From Pseudonocardia sp. CNS-004 (GTDB lineage Bacteria; Actinomycetota; Actinomycetes; Mycobacteriales; Pseudonocardiaceae): a stretch of DNA of 64,000 nucleotides. The notes beneath the pieces are model-generated. The model ran no database searches, was not told the origin of the DNA, and was given only the letters and a program-made list of their open reading frames with translations. Shown in pieces: positions 22,005-28,905 of this stretch. A program made the position numbers and the translations under genes. The stretch is from contig MKJV01000044.1 in the NCBI GenBank assembly GCA_001942185.1, forward strand, positions 96,868 through 160,867. The letters run 5' to 3'. The stretch's first letter is position 1. Each line of letters starts with the position of its first letter.

Positions 22005-22860
22005 ATGCCCGCCCGCACGCTGCTCACCCCCGGCACCGTCTCGCCCACCCGGCCCGTCCCGGCACACATCGAGCGGCCGGAGTACGTCGGCAGGAAGCGC
22101 CCCGAGCGCAACAACGACCCGTGGGTGCAGACACCCGAGGTGATCGAGCGCATGCGGGTGGCCGGGAAGATCGCGGCGCAGGCCCTCGAGGTGGGCGGCG
22201 AGGCGGTGGTGCCGGGCGCACCACCGACGAGGTCGACCGCGCGGTGCACGAGTTCCTCGTGGCCCACGACGCTACCCGTCCACCCTGGGCTACAAGGGCT
22301 TCCCCAAGTCGTGCTGCACCAGCCTCAACGAGGTGATCTGCCACGGCATCCCCGACTCCACGGTGATCCAGGACGGCGACATCGTCAACATCGACGTCAC
22401 CGCGTTCATCGGCGGCGTCCACGGCGACACCAACGGCACGTTCCTCGCCGGGAACGTGAGCGAGGAGGACCGCCTCCTCGTCGAGCGCACCCGCGAGGCC
22501 ACGATGCGGGCGATCAAGGCGGTGCGCCCCGGCCGGGAGCTCAACGTCGTCGGCCGCGTGATCGAGTCCTACGCCAAGCGGTTCGGCTACGGCGTGGTCC
22601 GCGACTTCACCGGCCACGGCATCGGCCGCGCCTTCCACAGCGGCCTGGTCGTCCTGCACTACGACGAGCCGAGCGTCGACACCGTGCTGGAGACGGGAAT
22701 GACGTTCACGATCGAGCCGATGATCACGCTCGGCACCATCGACTACGACATCTGGGACGACGGCTGGACGGTCGTCACCAAGGACCGCGCCCGCACGGCG
22801 CAGTTCGAGCACACGGTGCTGGTCACGGCGGACGGGGTGGAGATCCTCACGCTGCCCTGA
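22005..22860 (+). CDS. map: Methionine aminopeptidase type I, two frameshifts
   Basis: Removes initiator methionine from nascent proteins. About 286 residues with an N-terminal SH3-binding-like extension ([26 protein letters not shown]), as in actinobacterial MapB. Metal ligands are seen in [22 protein letters not shown] (two Asp), GHGIGRAFH (His), TFTIEPMI (Glu) and QFEHTVLV (Glu). [14 protein letters not shown] is the conserved substrate loop. One base seems missing near 22218 (between VVPG and TTDEVDRAV) and one near 22271. Downstream, the signal peptidase gene converges. Confidence 0.93.
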
Positions 22861-22875
22861 CCCGATCCGGAACGG

Positions 22876-23616
22876 TCAGCGGATCTCGCCGATGCGGTCG
22901 AAGGGCCAGAGGATGAACCGGGCCTCGCCGATCACCTGCGAAACCGGGACCGGGCCGTTGCCCTCGGCGCGGGAGTCGACGGAGTCGTTGCGGCTGTCAC
23001 CCATCAGCCAGAGCTCGCCGTCGGGCACGTGGACCGGCCCGAACTCGGCCTGCCGCAGCGGACCGGCCTCGGGGAGGAAGTAGAGGAACGGCTCGTCGAC
23101 GCCGACACCGTCGACGAGGATCCGGTTGCGTTCGTCGCAGCAGGCCACGGTCTGCCCGCCGACGGCGATCACGCGCTTGACGTAGTCGGTCTCGTCCGCG
23201 GTGTGGGAGGTTATCCCCACGAGCGCGAGCAGTTGCGCCACGGCGTCGAGGACCGGGTTGCCGCTGCCGGACGGGACCTCCAGCTCGCTGTTGGTCCAGC
23301 TGTCCGGGACGGCGAACACCACGACGTCACCCGGCGCCGGGTCCCTGAGCCGGTAGGTCAGCTTGTCGACCAGCACGCGGTCGTTGTCGCAGCCGGCGCA
23401 GCCGTGCAACGTCCGCTCCATCGAACCGGACGGGATGACGTAGATCCGCGCGACGAAGACCGGGATGAGCGCCAGCACCAGGAGCGCGACGAGGAGGAGC
23501 ACAGGTCCGCGCCGGATCCGCCGTCCCGTGCGCTTCTCCGCCTGCACGGCCTGCTCATCGGGACGGGTGTCGACCACGTCGCCGTCTCCCACCTCGCGGA
23601 TTGGCCTACCGAACAC
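22876..23616 (-). CDS. lepB: Type I signal peptidase
   Basis: A 246-residue membrane protease that cleaves Sec/Tat signal peptides outside the membrane. One N-terminal membrane helix ([22 protein letters not shown]) precedes the catalytic Ser motif [12 protein letters not shown]; the general-base Lys is in [12 protein letters not shown]; box E is [16 protein letters not shown] and a CC motif may form disulfides. GTG at 23616 has GAGGAGAG seven bases ahead. It is the last gene after a run of tiny secreted proteins on the same strand, with a strong hairpin in the 66-base gap; it could serve those proteins specifically or be the general housekeeping enzyme. Confidence 0.93.
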
Positions 23617-23635
23617 GGATGCTCTCCTCGTCGAA

Positions 23636-23674
23636 CGGGCGACCCGGCGCGGCGCACCGCGTCCGGGTCGCCCG
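23636..23674 (-). terminator. 12-bp hairpin between the small secreted genes and lepB
   Basis: CGGGCGACCCGG (23636-23647) and CCGGGTCGCCCG (23663-23674) pair perfectly around a 15-base loop. It sits just after the stop of the fourth small secreted gene and before lepB, so it may end the small-protein mRNA, attenuate read-through into lepB, or protect the upstream mRNA from decay. Confidence 0.6.
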
Positions 23675-23682
23675 GGGGTGGA

Positions 23683-23918
23683 TCAGTCGTCGACGGCCGC
23701 ACCACCGGCGCCGTCCGCGCCGTCGGACGCCGTGCACTGGATGACGAAGTCTCCTGCACCGGCGGGAGCCAGCGGCAGGTGGAGGTGGCGGAACCCGACC
23801 GGCCGGACGGACCGTCCTGGTTCTTCGGGTCGCCGGCCTGGGCCGCGCCGCCGAACAGCGGCACCGCCACGGCCGCCGCGGCGACCGCGGCTGCGATGCC
23901 CGACACGGAGCGCTTCAC
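23683..23918 (-). CDS. Small secreted collagen-like Cys-pair protein, paralogue 3 (frameshifted)
   Basis: About 78 residues. The Sec signal peptide (KRSVSGIAAAVAAAAVAVPL, then FGGAAQA) is followed by G at the likely cleavage site. The mature part repeats the cluster's architecture: Gly-X-Y triplets (GPS GRS GSA), Cys, a 13-residue loop with PLAPAGAGDF, QC, then triplets (GAD GAG GAA) and an acidic end. One C is missing near 23790 between the first Cys and the loop; the repaired frame ends at the TGA shown. GTG at 23918 is preceded by GGGAGG. It is 35 bases after paralogue 4 and 66 before lepB. No known family is recognised. Confidence 0.72.
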
Positions 23919-23953
23919 GAGGCGCCTCCCTTCTGGAGCCCGACGTGCGACCT

Positions 23954-24216
23954 TCACCGCTGCGCTCCCGTCGCGCCGTCGGCGCCGTCCTCGCCCACCA
24001 CGTTGCAGATGGGCGCGTTCATCGGAGGCAGGTAGGTCGAGGTACAGGTGACGTCCTGGCCGTCCTCGCCGGGCGTGCCGACGCGGTCGGGTTCGTCCCC
24101 GGCCTGGGCCAGGCCGGCCGAGGCCGCGAACCGGCCGCGGCCAGAACCGTCACCGCAACGACGCCGGCGGACCGGCGAAAGGGGCGCCTGTTGTTCGCAG
24201 ACCTAATCATTGTCAT
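23954..24216 (-). CDS. Small secreted collagen-like Cys-pair protein, paralogue 4 (frameshifted)
   Basis: About 87 residues. Basic N-terminus (SANNRRPFRRSAG), hydrophobic core and A-Q-A/G cleavage site. The mature protein shows the clearest collagen-like triplets of the cluster: GTP GED GQD before the first Cys, a 12-residue loop (TSTYLPPMNAPI) to the second Cys, then GED GAD GAT GAQ to the end. One base is missing near 24134 in the signal-peptide region, so the first 30 residues are a repair. Its ATG is 3 bases after the stop of paralogue 2, a tight operon. Too short for a collagen triple helix to be assumed; function unknown. Confidence 0.7.
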
Positions 24217-24219
24217 GGC

Positions 24220-24492
24220 TCAGTAATCGGCGCCGGCGCCGCCGGTGCCGCCCGTGCCGCCGGTCGCATTGCACTGTGAAACGTCGCCGCCCTCGCCGAG
24301 GATGCCGAGCGAGATGCCGATCGGGATCAGGCACTGTGAATTGGCGGCGCCGCCCGACCCGCCCGAGCCTCCCGTGTTCTCCGGGTGACCGTTCCCGTAG
24401 CCGCCCGCGAGTGCGGCGCCGCCGAACAGGGGCGATCCGATGATTGCGAATGCTAAGACCGCGGTCGCGGACTTGCGTACGAAAGTGCGCAT
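24220..24492 (-). CDS. Small secreted collagen-like Cys-pair protein, paralogue 2
   Basis: A 90-residue protein with intact frame. Signal peptide MRTFVRKSATAVLAFAIIGS, then PLFGGAALA/GGYG. The mature part has GGS GGS GGA triplets, the motif NSQC, a 19-residue loop starting LIPIGISLG and ending GGDVSQ, the second Cys, and a tail of GGT GGT GGA GAD ending in Tyr. It is closely related to paralogue 1 along its whole length, so the two arose by duplication. It is separated from paralogue 1 by 272 bases holding a terminator and probably a promoter, and precedes paralogue 4 by 3 bases. Confidence 0.8.
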   Translation of the reverse strand: MRTFVRKSATAVLAFAIIGSPLFGGAALAGGYGNGHPENTGGSGGSGGAANSQCLIPIGISLGILGEGGDVSQCNATGGTGGTGGAGADY

Positions 24493-24701
24493 TCTCCGGT
24501 TGATTCCTTTCCATGCTCCGGCAGTCCGCTCCGGCCTACCGAGATCGGACGTGAAGATGCCCGGCCGCGACGCCCCGTCCGCACCGAACGTTCGATGAGG
24601 CCGGTGATCGGGCCGGGCCGGTGGCCCCGGGGTCCGGAACCGTGCCGCGACGACGCCGTGACGACCGACCGGTCCTCCGCGCCGGCGAGCGCTACCCTGA
24701 C
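24493..24701 (-). promoter_or_regulatory. Upstream region of the paralogue 2-4-3 operon
   Basis: No gene is visible in these bases. They lie between the terminator hairpin of paralogue 1 and the ATG of paralogue 2, with a purine-rich GGAAAGGAATCAACCGGAGA just before the ATG as ribosome binding site. A separate promoter for the downstream three genes is expected here because of the terminator; no clear -35/-10 pair could be assigned. Confidence 0.35.
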
Positions 24702-24742
24702 GGTGGTGCAGGCCCCCGACGAGCCCGGGGGCCTGCACCACC
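24702..24742 (-). terminator. Perfect 16-bp terminator hairpin after paralogue 1
   Basis: GGTGGTGCAGGCCCCC (24702-24717) and GGGGGCCTGCACCACC (24727-24742) form an unbroken 16-bp stem with a 9-base loop. On the minus strand it starts 22 bases after the stop of paralogue 1. It is the strongest simple hairpin I found in the window and should end or stabilise the transcript of paralogue 1. Confidence 0.75.
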
Positions 24743-24764
24743 ATTTACGCAGGTGAGACAGGTG

Positions 24765-25031
24765 TCAGTAGTCGGCCCCGGTGCCGCCGGCGCCACCCGC
24801 GCCGCCGCCCGCGTTGCACTGCGAGACGTCGCCGCCCTGGCCGACCAGCGCGCCGAGCGAGACGCCGACCGGGATCAGGCACTGGGAGGTCGCGGCGCCG
24901 CCGGCCCCGCCGGCGCCGCCGGTATTGTCGACGTGACCGTGGCCTCCTGCCATTGCTGTGCCGCCGAACAACGCCGCTCCGGTCAGTGCAAATGCAGCTG
25001 CCACGGACGCGACTCGGGTCTTGCGAAGCAT
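24765..25031 (-). CDS. Small secreted collagen-like Cys-pair protein, paralogue 1
   Basis: An 88-residue protein, intact. Signal peptide MLRKTRVASVAAAFALTGA, then ALFGGTAMA/GGHGH. The mature part carries GGA GGA GGA triplets, TSQC, a 20-residue loop (LIPVGVSLG ... GQGGDVSQ), the second Cys, and GGA GGA GGT GAD ending in Tyr. ATG at 25031 has a full AAGGAGG ribosome binding site 6-7 bases ahead, predicting strong expression, and a strong hairpin follows the stop. It is divergent from a MacAB-like exporter operon 385 bases away. I recognise no family; the two-Cys loop is reminiscent of chaplins or rodlins but the sequence does not match them. Confidence 0.82.
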   Translation of the reverse strand: MLRKTRVASVAAAFALTGAALFGGTAMAGGHGHVDNTGGAGGAGGAATSQCLIPVGVSLGALVGQGGDVSQCNAGGGAGGAGGTGADY

Positions 25032-25416
25032 CTTGTCCTCCTTGTACCGCCGGAACGCCGCTCGTTCCGTGCAATGCAAATGAGTAGTCGCCTCTCCTGG
25101 CCCTGTCTAGTCGTGAGGCACGCTCGTTCGCCCATCCCACTCGGACGGGTTGGCCCGGATGATTCCGAACACGAGCAGTGATGATCTAGTGGCCCGCCGG
25201 GGACCGCCGGCGGACTGGGTCACATACGTGTGATTCACCGGGCGGGGGGGCGGTCGTAATGCTCATAGGATGAATTGGTGTGCGCAGAGTGTTCGTTCGG
25301 ACCGCCGTCGACTCGCCCGAGTGAACCGGTGGCGAATGACGTAACGGCGCCTGACGGTATTCGTTGCTCCACCGTCCACGGACGGCACGGGGGTGCTCCC
25401 GTGCGCCTGATGAGGG
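25032..25416. promoter_or_regulatory. Divergent regulatory region between the small secreted genes and the ABC exporter
   Basis: No convincing gene in 385 bases. Composition is more AT-rich around 25255-25290 than nearby, likely promoter DNA for the exporter operon. A short palindrome CACA-TACG-TGTG lies near 25222-25233. Shared regulation of the two divergent operons is possible but not shown by the sequence. Confidence 0.4.
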
Positions 25417-26151
25417 GTGAGCCGCAGTTCGATGATCAAGCTCGAAGGTGTCGGTAAGAGTTACCGGGCCGGGGAGGCGGAGGTTCGCGCGCTCCGGGAC
25501 GTCGAGCTCACGGTCGACGACGGCGACTTCGTGGCGATCATGGGTCCGTCCGGCTCCGGCAAGAGCACGATGATGAACATCCTCGGGTGCCTCGACGTCC
25601 CGAGCGAGGGCCGCTACCTGCTCGACGGGATCGACGTGTCGGGGATGAGCGACGACGAGCTCGCCGCGATCCGCAACGGCAAGATCGGTCTGGTCTTCCA
25701 GTCGTACAACCTGCTGCCGCGCACGACCGCGCTCGCGAACGTCGAGCTGCCGCTGGTGTACGGCAACCAGCGGGCGCGCCGGAGCCGGGCCATGCGGGCG
25801 CTGGAGGAGGTCGGGCTCGCCGACCGCGCCTCCCACCTGCCCAACCAGCTCTCCGGCGGGCAGCAGCAGCGGGTGGCGATCGCCCGCGCGCTCGTGACCC
25901 GGCCGACGATGATCCTGGCCGACGAGCCGACCGGGAACCTCGACACCGAGGCCAGCTGCGAGATCGCCGAGATGCTGAGGCGGCTCTCCGCGGCGGGCCG
26001 GACGGTCGTGCTCATCACGCACGAGGAGGAGATCGCCGCCTACGCCCGCCGCGTGGTGCGGCTGCGCGACGGCCGGATCGTGAGCGACACCCGCAGGGGC
26101 CTCCCCGACGATGTCACCCAGGAGATCCAACGTGCGGGGGCAGACGCATGA
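25417..26151 (+). CDS. ABC transporter ATPase (MacB/LolD type)
   Basis: A 244-residue ATPase with Walker [14 protein letters not shown]-loop [10 protein letters not shown], signature [15 protein letters not shown], Walker [13 protein letters not shown] and switch His in LITHEEE. It belongs to the MacB/FtsE-like group that powers substrate extrusion from the membrane outer face. GTG at 25417 is used; an ATG at 25432 is an alternative. Its stop overlaps the permease start (ATGA). With the two following genes it forms a complete MacAB-like exporter unit. Confidence 0.93.
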
Positions 26152-27371
26152 CTCTCCGTCTGGCGTTCGTCATGGCGTGGCGCGGTCTGCGGGCCAACCG
26201 GCTGCGCTCGTTGCTGACGATGCTCGGGATCATGATCGGCGTTGCCGCCGTGATCCTGCTCGTCGCGCTCGGCAACGGCACGTCTGCGCGGTTGAACTCG
26301 CAGCTGGAGGCACTGGGCACGAACCTGATCGGCGTCTTCCAGGCCCGGGGCAGCGTGTCGGAGGGTGGGCAGAGCCAGCCCCTGACCGACCGGGACGTCG
26401 AGGCGTTGCGCGACTCGAACGAGGCGCCGCGGTTCGTCACGGTGACCCCGGTCAAGCAGGCGAGTGCGGTGTTGAAGGGGCAGTACGGTACCTGGCGCAC
26501 CAGCATCGTCGGGTCGTCGCAGGACTACCCGGCCGCCCTCAACCGCACGATCGACGTCGGGAAGTTCTTCTCCGAGTCCCAGGTGAAGACTCGCGCCCGC
26601 GTGGTGGTGCTCGGCCCCCAGCCGGTGCGGGAGATCTTCGGGGGGATCCCGGCGGCCGCGCTCGGTCAGCAGGTGCGCATCGGGTCGCAGACGTTCGAGG
26701 TCACGGGCGTGCTGGAGCCCAACGGGCAGCAGGACGACGTCGCGGTCATGCCGATCACGGCAGCGCGCACCTACCTGGTCGACGGCGGTGCCGACGACCG
26801 GGTCGACCAGCTCGTCGTGCAGGCCACCGGCCAGGACGCCGTGCCGGCGGCGATGGCCAAGGTCGAGCGGGTCCTCATGGACTCCCACCGGATCGACGAC
26901 CCCACCCAGAAGGACTTCGAGGTCCGCTCGAACCTCGACCTGCTCGAGCAGTACGGCGAGGTCACCGCGGTCTTCACGGTGTTCCTCGCGTCCATCGCGG
27001 CGATCGCGCTGCTGGTCGGCGGGATCGGCGTCATGAACATCATGCTCGTCACGGTCACCGAGCGGACCCGTGAGATCGGCCTGCGCAAGGCGCTCGGTGC
27101 GCGGCGGCGGACCGTGCTCGAGCAGTTCCTCGTGGAGTCGACCGTGCTCTCGGGCATCGGCGGGTCGGTCGGTGTCGTCCTCGGTGTGGGGCTGTGCCTG
27201 CTCGGGGAACGGTTCGGCGCCGCGTTCGGCGACTTCGCCCCACCCCAGCTGTCCCTCCCGTCGGTGCTGCTCGCGTTCACGGTGAGCCTCTGCATCGGCC
27301 TGTTCTTCGGCGCCTACCCCGCCAAGCGCGCCGCCCGACTCCGCCCCATCGAAGCGCTGAGGTACGAATGA
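26148..27371 (+). CDS. MacB-like ABC permease (FtsX domain)
   Basis: A 407-residue permease. One N-terminal helix (LLTMLGIMIGVAAVILLVALG) precedes a MacB periplasmic-core-like extracellular domain (residues 50-260), then three C-terminal helices with the FtsX motif (VGGIGVMNIMLVTVTERTREIGLRKALGARR in about residues 295-325) and the ending AAYPAKRAARLRPIEALRYE-like segment. Such transporters work by mechanotransmission and move peptides, lipoproteins or antibiotics. Overlaps the ATPase gene and the adaptor gene by 4 bases each. Confidence 0.93.
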   Translation: MTLRLAFVMAWRGLRANRLRSLLTMLGIMIGVAAVILLVALGNGTSARLNSQLEALGTNLIGVFQARGSVSEGGQSQPLTDRDVEALRDSNEAPRFVTVTPVKQASAVLKGQYGTWRTSIVGSSQDYPAALNRTIDVGKFFSESQVKTRARVVVLGPQPVREIFGGIPAAALGQQVRIGSQTFEVTGVLEPNGQQDDVAVMPITAARTYLVDGGADDRVDQLVVQATGQDAVPAAMAKVERVLMDSHRIDDPTQKDFEVRSNLDLLEQYGEVTAVFTVFLASIAAIALLVGGIGVMNIMLVTVTERTREIGLRKALGARRRTVLEQFLVESTVLSGIGGSVGVVLGVGLCLLGERFGAAFGDFAPPQLSLPSVLLAFTVSLCIGLFFGAYPAKRAARLRPIEALRYE

Positions 27372-28905
27372 CCACCCGAACCACTGCGCACCGCCTCGCG
27401 GCCGTGGCACTCGTGCTGCTGCTCGCCGGGTGCAGCAGCGCCGAGTCCGAGCCGCTGGCGGTGAAGGTGACCCGCACGAGCGTGACGTCGACCGTCACCG
27501 CCACCGGTTCCCTGCAGGCCATCACCGAGCAGAACCTCGGGTTCCCCGAGGGCGGCAAGCTCGTGGCCGTGGACGTCGCCGTCGGGCAGCAGGTCGAGGC
27601 GGGGCAGATCCTGGCCCGGCTCGACGACTTCGCTGCCCAGCGCGACCTCACGTCCGCCGAGGCGCAGCTGGCGCAGGAACGGGCGGCACTGGCCCGGGTC
27701 CGGGGCGGCAACCAGGTGGACGCCGCGGAGGACGACGCCGCGCGGGCCAAGGAGGTCCTGGCGGCCACGAAGAAGCGCGCCGACGCGATCGACGACGCCA
27801 ACGCCGCGGCCGTCGAGGAGGCGCGCAAGCAGCTCGAGCTCGATGAGGAGGTGCTGCGCGACACCAGGTCCCGGACCCGTGCGGACCGGCGTTCCTGCAC
27901 GTCGGAGGACCGCAGGGACGCCGAGCGCGACGAGGGCGAGGACGAGTCGATCTTCGAGTTCTCCGGGGACTCCCAGTCCGAGGACTGCGAGGTCGCCGCG
28001 GAGAAGGAGACCGAGGTCGAGCAGGCGGAGCGCCAGGTCCGCGCCAGCGAGGCGGCCCTCGAAGAGGCCGAGAACCAGCGGCGCGTCGACCGGGCCGCCC
28101 AGGACGTGGAGATCGAGAGCGCCCGGCGCGACCTGTCGGCGGCGAAGAACGCCGCCGAGGCGCCCGCGGGGACCGCCCCCACGACATCGACGAGCAGGCC
28201 GCGATCGTCGCGCAGCTCCAGGTCGACCTGGACAGGGCGCGGCGCGCCGTGGAGGACACGGTCCTGCGCGCGCCCGTCGCGGGCAAGGTCGCGAGCATCA
28301 ACGGTGTGGTCGGCGAGTTCGTCGGCGGCGGCTCGGGCACCACACCGCTCGCGCCCGGCGGCACCGTCCCACTGCCCGAGCTGGGCTCGTCCGTCTCGGC
28401 GGGAGAGCAGGGCGGCGGCGAGAACGAGCGGCCCGGCGGCACCTCGTTCATCGTGCTCGGCGACGTGCAGAGCTTCCAGATCGTCGCACCGTTCGCCGAG
28501 ACCGACGCGGCGCTCATCCAGCCGAACCAGGAGGTCGAGGTCACGTTCGACGCGATCCCCGACCTCACCCGCTCCGGCCGGATCGCCAGCATCGCGCCCA
28601 GCGGCACCGACATCCGGGGCGTCACCAGCTACTACGGCGTGATCGTCCTGAGCGAGCTCGACCCCCGGCTCAGGGACGGCCTGACGGCATCGGCCAACGT
28701 CGTCGTGGACCACCGCGACGACACCCTCACCGTGCCGAACGCCGCGCTCATGCAGAGCGGGGGCAGCGGCACGGTGACGGTGGTCGAACCCGACGGCTCG
28801 CAGCGGCAGGTCCAGGTCGAGCTCGGCCTCGCGGGCGACAGCGCCACCCAGGTCGTCGCCGGGCTGAGGGAGGGGCAGCAGGTCCTCGTCGCGCCCGGGG
28901 GGTGA
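27368..28905 (+). CDS. MacA/HlyD-like periplasmic adaptor lipoprotein, frameshifted
   Basis: About 513 residues. Signal peptide with lipobox LLLAGC, a lipoyl-like half (GSLQAITEQNLGFPEGGKL), a long charged helical hairpin (residues 90-275, rich in Ala/Glu/Arg, a likely coiled coil), then the second lipoyl half (EDTVLRAPVAGKVASING), a beta-barrel and a membrane-proximal domain. Near 28172 one base is missing; the repaired frame reads DIDEQAAIVAQLQVDLDRARRA. It should form the extracytoplasmic conduit of the exporter. An acidic insert with four Cys (near residues 170-220) is unusual for the family. Confidence 0.88.

Follow-up and report, generated by a model that had tools for sequence, protein, structure and literature searches.

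How actinomycetes without chaplins raise aerial hyphae is a question which concerns nearly all of the genus Pseudonocardia, 61 of 62 genomes of which have no match to the chaplin model PF03777. In a review of around 100 genomes, chaplin-like proteins are reported from Streptomyces, from its closest kin and from a handful of others (PMC4255298). In this regard, the window analysed here, a stretch of 64,000 nucleotides from Pseudonocardia sp. CNS-004 (genome G000, contig MKJV01000044.1), contains four tandem genes for tiny, apparently secreted proteins, for which a surface, aerial-hypha or signalling role had been put forward in the initial annotation as speculation. The best reading of the locus is that of a non-chaplin developmental surface-protein system, a reading in which both the coat function and the assembly of the peptides are inferred. 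With a probability of about one half, the products of the four genes help to coat the surface of aerial hyphae or spores, such that they would do a chaplin-type job without being chaplins. The main find is the surroundings of the locus, with a second signal peptidase (LepB2), a transporter and a BldN-type promoter, rather than the peptides alone. Since the locus offers candidate coat genes, maturase, exporter and sigma factor, it makes the question of aerial hyphae directly testable in culturable species, P. kunmingensis for example.

The four peptide genes and their family

The genes lie side by side between 23683 and 25031, as follows.

24765..25031, minus strand: gene 1, intact, 88 aa; predicted signal peptide, then two GGX arms on either side of a 20-residue loop that is bounded by two Cys
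24220..24492, minus strand: gene 2, intact, 90 aa; plan as gene 1, with a 19-residue loop
23954..24216, minus strand: gene 3, one frame change as sequenced, in the signal-peptide part; 12-residue loop; intact orthologues in G017, G021 and G036
23683..23918, minus strand: gene 4, one frame change as sequenced, in the loop; intact orthologues in G017, G021 and G036

The initial annotation had described four tandem tiny genes of one architecture, and on re-reading this plan is borne out: a signal-peptide-like start running to A-x-A, a glycine-rich arm, a cysteine, a loop, a second cysteine and a second glycine-rich arm. Genes 1 and 2 are indeed the intact near twins that they had been taken for, being 66% identical with GGX arms in both, and by eye genes 3 and 4 share with them a proline soon after the first cysteine. 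The loops of genes 1 to 4 are of 20, 19, 12 and 12 residues, that of gene 4 being taken from G017, and across the family the loop ranges from 11 to 29 residues.

The frame changes in genes 3 and 4 are probably assembly errors, with real decay as the alternative, because the neighbouring map gene (22005-22916) and the MacA-like gene (27368-28905) are frame-broken as well. The map gene is spread over three frames in the window and intact in G017, which suggests base-level errors in the G000 assembly (9.2 Mb, 83% complete). G017, G021 and G036 carry intact, collinear copies of all four peptide genes, with both cysteines and the triplets kept; a loss of the second cysteine and triplets from genes 3 and 4, which the initial annotation had allowed for as evidence against its description, is therefore not what the intact copies contain. 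Measured against the intact G017 proteins, a single frame of the window covers residues 11-86 of the 86 in gene 3 and residues 1-56 of the 77 in gene 4. Moreover, dN/dS lies between 0.06 and 0.61 in all 18 pairwise comparisons of genes 1 to 4, which are thus under purifying selection as coding sequences.

Gene 1 has 56 homologues at E<=0.01, and a profile built from 34 members gives at least 79 matches among the best 7991 candidates, bringing the family to at least 109 proteins. Within the genus, 13 of 62 genomes match this profile at E<=0.01, of which eight are convincing (G000, G002, G014, G017, G021, G036, G051 and G057), with three to six matching places each, two weak places counted. The other five (G005, G012, G030, G052 and G061; E 9e-4 to 8e-3) match the N-terminal part of the profile alone and were dropped, as were single weak matches in G036 (C1) and G057 (C7:90322), and a match in G022 that lies inside a 1786-aa frame. 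When the best 13 candidates per genome were scored, 10 of 390 Pseudonocardiaceae genomes matched at E<=1e-4, among which G264 and G359 belong to other genera, and in a class-wide sample scored in the same way G000 was the one match in 394 genomes, with none in the other 393. Among the genomes searched or named, therefore, the family is essentially one of Pseudonocardia with two further Pseudonocardiaceae genomes, and its presence in just eight of 62 Pseudonocardia genomes means that the genus at large does not require it.

The profile search that had been suggested at the outset accordingly ends in a real protein family without a name, in a conserved, developmental-looking locus. Pfam holds no family over cut-off for its members, PADLOC no family match, and phages and plasmids no match; NCBIfam likewise gives no match for the peptides, a weak negative as a true chaplin also matched nothing there. 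A literature search of limited depth, covering Pseudonocardia chaplins, aerial-surface and secreted proteins with BldN, glycine-rich chaplins and rodlins, and Streptomyces collagen-like proteins, returned no description of it. From their sequences, the members are small, predicted secreted proteins with two cysteines that would form a disulfide. Both cysteines are invariant across 44 aligned sequences, and exactly two remain after the signal cut, as guessed by a simple rule, in 102 of 107 proteins, with no cut found in two more.

In the same 44-sequence alignment, the positions of G-G-x-G-G-x-G-G in each arm are either invariant or conserved to at least 90%. In genes 1 and 2 the arms consist of three to four GGX triplets with two glycines per triplet; in genes 3 and 4 they are nearer to Gly-X-Y and no longer. 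The term 'collagen-like', which had been applied to all four, is thus an overstatement. Indeed, the glycine period within single arms shows no excess over shuffles of the same arm in eight of ten arms (P 0.06-0.65), rising above the shuffles solely in two C-terminal arms of copy 3 (P 0.003-0.004), and with longest runs of three to four triplets per arm a collagen-like identity was rejected. AlphaFold gave no usable model of mature gene 1 (19 sequences; pLDDT 48.7, pTM 0.15), and the best match of a profile search against the PDB was at E 0.23. For the triplets of PGRS proteins a polyglycine-II sandwich has been proposed, in a model where three to four triplets span one polyglycine-II helix (PMC9436101). 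By analogy, a PGRS-type polyglycine-II fold is the nearest structural idea for what the arms here may form, and with two arms per molecule it would need packing between molecules.

The conserved locus and its BldN-type site

The genes on either side of the peptides, with the promoter motif, are these.

22876..23616, minus strand: lepB2, situated 66 bp downstream of gene 4 and encoding a second signal peptidase I (PF10502, TIGR02227)
25340..25366, plus strand: sigma-BldN-type promoter by motif match, CGTAAC-N16-CGTTG, upstream of the transporter ATPase
25417..26151, plus strand: ABC transporter ATPase, divergent from the peptide genes (PF00005); ATG candidate at 25432
26148..27371, plus strand: MacB-type permease (MacB_PCD, FtsX)
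27368..28905, plus strand: MacA/HlyD-like partner, frame-broken as sequenced with five stops; named from HlyD-family genes in the same place in G002 and G051

Peptide genes, a divergent MacB-type transporter (ATPase and permease) and LepB2 on the other side occur together in all eight Pseudonocardia genomes with convincing members, the HlyD-family partner being confirmed in G002 and G051. LepB2 is codirectional with the peptide genes and close to them in the clade of the window (66 bp in the window itself); in G057, G051, G014 and G002 it is convergent, at 0.74, 1.06, 1.19 and 3.6 kb, respectively, from the nearest peptide gene. At E<=1e-20, LepB is matched in 58 of 62 Pseudonocardia genomes, and more than one LepB place is found in 10 of the 62, these being the eight family genomes together with G013 and G052 (Fisher P 1.3e-8, uncorrected for kinship). 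In a LepB tree of 31 rows, in which overall support is moderate, some branches are long and 11 rows fall into no group, the eight locus copies cluster together, away from 12 housekeeping ones, in 98% of 200 bootstrap trees and in 0 of 500 shuffles (support 82/85). As the locus copies form one group, LepB2 has likely been inherited with the locus, and we infer that it acts on the peptides.

Extra LepB-like genes also occur apart from the peptide locus, in G013 and G052 and as further copies in G014 and G002, and no GGX genes were found there; single family genes elsewhere in G002, G014 and G057 stand without LepB2. In G013 (L140:8628-9714), the extra LepB-like gene directly precedes a gene for a 160-aa predicted secreted two-cysteine protein, unlike the GGX family and matching nothing in Pfam or NCBIfam, which is possibly another pair of peptidase and surface protein. 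At L079:1324-4233 in G051, two further predicted secreted cysteine-containing proteins, one of them strongly acidic and neither with a Pfam family over cut-off, are encoded between LepB2 and the GGX genes, and another beyond LepB2.

Three of the eight loci, in G014, G002 and G057, contain an SsgA-like sporulation gene between the peptides and LepB2 (E 1.5e-17, 2.5e-17 and 1.2e-24, respectively), and the other five do not. Each of these three genomes has three to five SsgA genes in all. The three loci may come from one ancestor, so that the arrangement would be conserved synteny and not three independent events.

The published BldN motif is CGTAACN16CGTTGA (PMC2375139). Exact CGTAAC-N16-CGTTG stands upstream of five of the eight transporters (those of the window, G017, G021, G036 and G057), in each case without the last A of the published motif, such that 11 of 12 letters match; the site in G051 has the full letters with a spacing of N17, and those in G014 and G002 are degenerate, with CGTTG kept and, by eye, a weaker upstream box. 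In whole-genome counts, BldN-type sites number 4 in G000 against 0 in a reversed control, and 51 against 6 in 15 chosen genomes (seven with the locus, eight without), that is 55 sites in 16 genomes. Among 34 of these examined as loci, five precede the locus transporter, whereas nine, including one in G000, stand behind a BldN-like gene that has the same orientation. An open gene in the position of rsbN comes next in eight of the nine, the gene in G000 not being open. In the one pair of sigma factor and next gene that was scanned, the sigma factor matches the BldN family best in NCBIfam, with 192 bits against a cut-off of 206, and the gene after it carries DUF5667. In S. venezuelae, rsbN is transcribed from a promoter that depends on BldN (PMC4255298), and hence a BldN promoter is very likely what the motif marks in Pseudonocardia too. 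None of ten close paralogues of the transporter elsewhere has such a site; within the eight loci the sites face the divergent transporter, none being found in the direction of the peptide genes.

Sites of this type also occur before other genes. In G010, a genome without the GGX family, one lies 145 bp upstream of a gene (L202:465-1355) whose 297-aa product is predicted to be secreted, starts with a Gly/His-rich part, contains N/Q-rich repeats and has no Pfam or NCBIfam family; it is another surface-protein candidate. Others precede genes for secreted proteins of L,D-transpeptidase type (L182, L195, L204 and L187), that in G000 (L182) being assigned by a YkuD match at E 6.9e-17 and the rest by eye.

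Two hairpins flank gene 1.

24700..24744, minus strand: RNA hairpin of 20 pairs downstream of gene 1, with z -5.6 in the window and -3.8 in G017; nearly identical in four genomes
25051..25069, minus strand: hairpin in the 5'-UTR of gene 1, with z -3.8 in the window and -3.4 in a second genome

Of the hairpins and strong ribosome-binding sites noted at first, the hairpins stand by these z values, and the ribosome sites are judged by eye alone. The corresponding 5'-UTR pieces from G014 and G057 fall short of significance, with z -0.3 and -1.3. A terminator scan found a T-run terminator at neither hairpin; the 20-pair stem may thus end transcription in another way or protect the message of gene 1. 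A scan for sigma-70 promoters over 22800-25500 found nothing. By eye, an element T(A/G)GACA-N17-TACTC is conserved before gene 1 and may be its promoter. Between transporter and gene 1 there is also a palindrome, TCACA-N4-TGTGA, at 25220-25233, present in three of the four genomes of the clade and altered in G036.

Proposed function of the locus and the rival readings

The sigma-BldN-type promoter, the second signal peptidase and the SsgA-like neighbour together lend indirect support to the role in aerial hyphae that was once speculation. In the mechanism proposed for the coat, the peptides would leave the cell by Sec, and LepB2 would cut their signal peptides during bulk production. The two cysteines would then close a disulfide, fixing the loop and setting the glycine-rich arms side by side, such that the arms of neighbouring molecules could pack, in the manner of polyglycine-II, into a layer. 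The hydrophobic loop of genes 1 and 2 would be a water-repellent or adhesive face, whereas copies 3 and 4, which are more polar, would serve as minor subunits or at interfaces. The MacB-type transporter, which sigma-BldN likely turns on, would help to clear or move peptides outside the membrane. The fullest version of this proposal, a chaplin-free coat in Pseudonocardia of disulfide-hinged peptides with GGX arms interlocked as polyglycine-II layers, served by a private signal peptidase and tied to BldN, is doubtful. If true, actinomycetes would have, in addition to chaplins and rodlins, a third class of protein at their aerial surfaces, and one not built on the amyloid principle. Should the glycine arms assemble, they would make a natural polyglycine-II material of minimal design, hinged by a disulfide.

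Next in order of probability after the coat function, and possible at well below even odds, is that the peptides belong to the extracellular matrix of the substrate mycelium or serve its adhesion, in biofilm or in attachment to soil particles or roots, and are not tied to aerial growth. Such a niche trait fits a family that just 8 of 62 genomes of the genus have, chaplins are described as serving attachment as well (PMC4255298), and a dedicated signal peptidase beside matrix proteins is known in tapA-sipW-tasA (PMC5618241). The BldN-type promoter and the SsgA neighbour, however, point to development. The same promoter and the repeated conserved glycine arms count against secreted antagonistic peptides of the kind of SdpC-like bacteriocins, in which the MacB-type transporter would be self-protection and LepB2 the maturase. 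MacB-type transporters can protect against Sdp-type toxins, and it is sets of small secreted two-cysteine paralogues that adjoin such a transporter here; the peptides nonetheless have no family match, and their dN/dS of 0.06-0.61 is that of purifying selection rather than diversification. This reading is improbable.

The lowest place is taken by true chaplins that have diverged highly, which are likewise improbable. Chaplins were named in the initial annotation as a possible identity and were looked for: PF03777 matches none of the 34 members at E up to 10, in a search where the HMMER filters drop weak matches, and comparison of the family profile with four true chaplins gives a probability of 0.1%, so that by sequence the peptides are not chaplins. 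P0106, a copy-3 orthologue, carries the name 'Small secreted domain DUF320' in its source, yet it too has no PF03777 match. A possible bridge between chaplins and the family is found in G264 (L143:6653-8753), where three GGX-type two-cysteine genes adjoin a chaplin-like one (PF03777 E 0.049, below cut-off) and share with it a signal peptide that is 74% identical, although like signal peptides can come from tandem duplication or fusion. Profile comparison of this trio with the Pseudonocardia family gives a probability of 55% (E 1e-4).

As to chaplins in their own right, PF03777 is matched in one of the 62 Pseudonocardia genomes and not in G000. The tally for Pseudonocardiaceae, 136 of 390 genomes, is not taken at face value since most of the listed matches, including those over the curated cut-off, sit in open frames of about 1000 aa and look to be in the wrong frame, which is a trap for automatic counts of chaplins. 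In the five strong small-frame loci, a chaplin is readable in four (G309, G313, G156 and G034) and not in G093.

Comparison with known systems

With bacterial collagen-like proteins the family shares a glycine at every third position, in genes 3 and 4. Collagen-like proteins as a class have arms of tens of triplets; the arms here have three to four, and are GGX in genes 1 and 2. The PE_PGRS proteins of mycobacteria are alike in their glycine-rich triplets and differ in that the present family has two short arms around a disulfide-type loop and no PE domain, for which there was no match, the PGRS model reaching E 8.4 in one of 34 members. Rodlins are, as the peptides would be, small secreted developmental surface proteins, and obvious rodlins are reported in review from streptomycetes only (PMC4255298).

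The tapA-sipW-tasA system of Bacillus offers the closest likeness for the signal peptidase, in that an extra such enzyme is encoded next to genes for surface or matrix proteins, as in all eight loci here. LepB2, however, is an ordinary bacterial signal peptidase I (TIGR02227) and not of the SipW type; TasA is described as having no cysteines (PMC5618241), whereas the family has two, and with no Pfam family over cut-off the peptides show no homology to TasA or TapA. The chaplins of Streptomyces (PF03777/DUF320, the short ChpD-H) are small, with two cysteines and several paralogues (PMC5618241), and they carry a signal peptide; the family resembles them in each of these respects, the cysteines standing around a loop in both. 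Regulation linked to BldN would be a further likeness, resting for the present locus on the site at the divergent transporter in five of eight loci. There is, however, no sequence relation between the two; the peptides carry glycine-rich arms outside the loop, and their locus has a signal peptidase and a transporter of its own.
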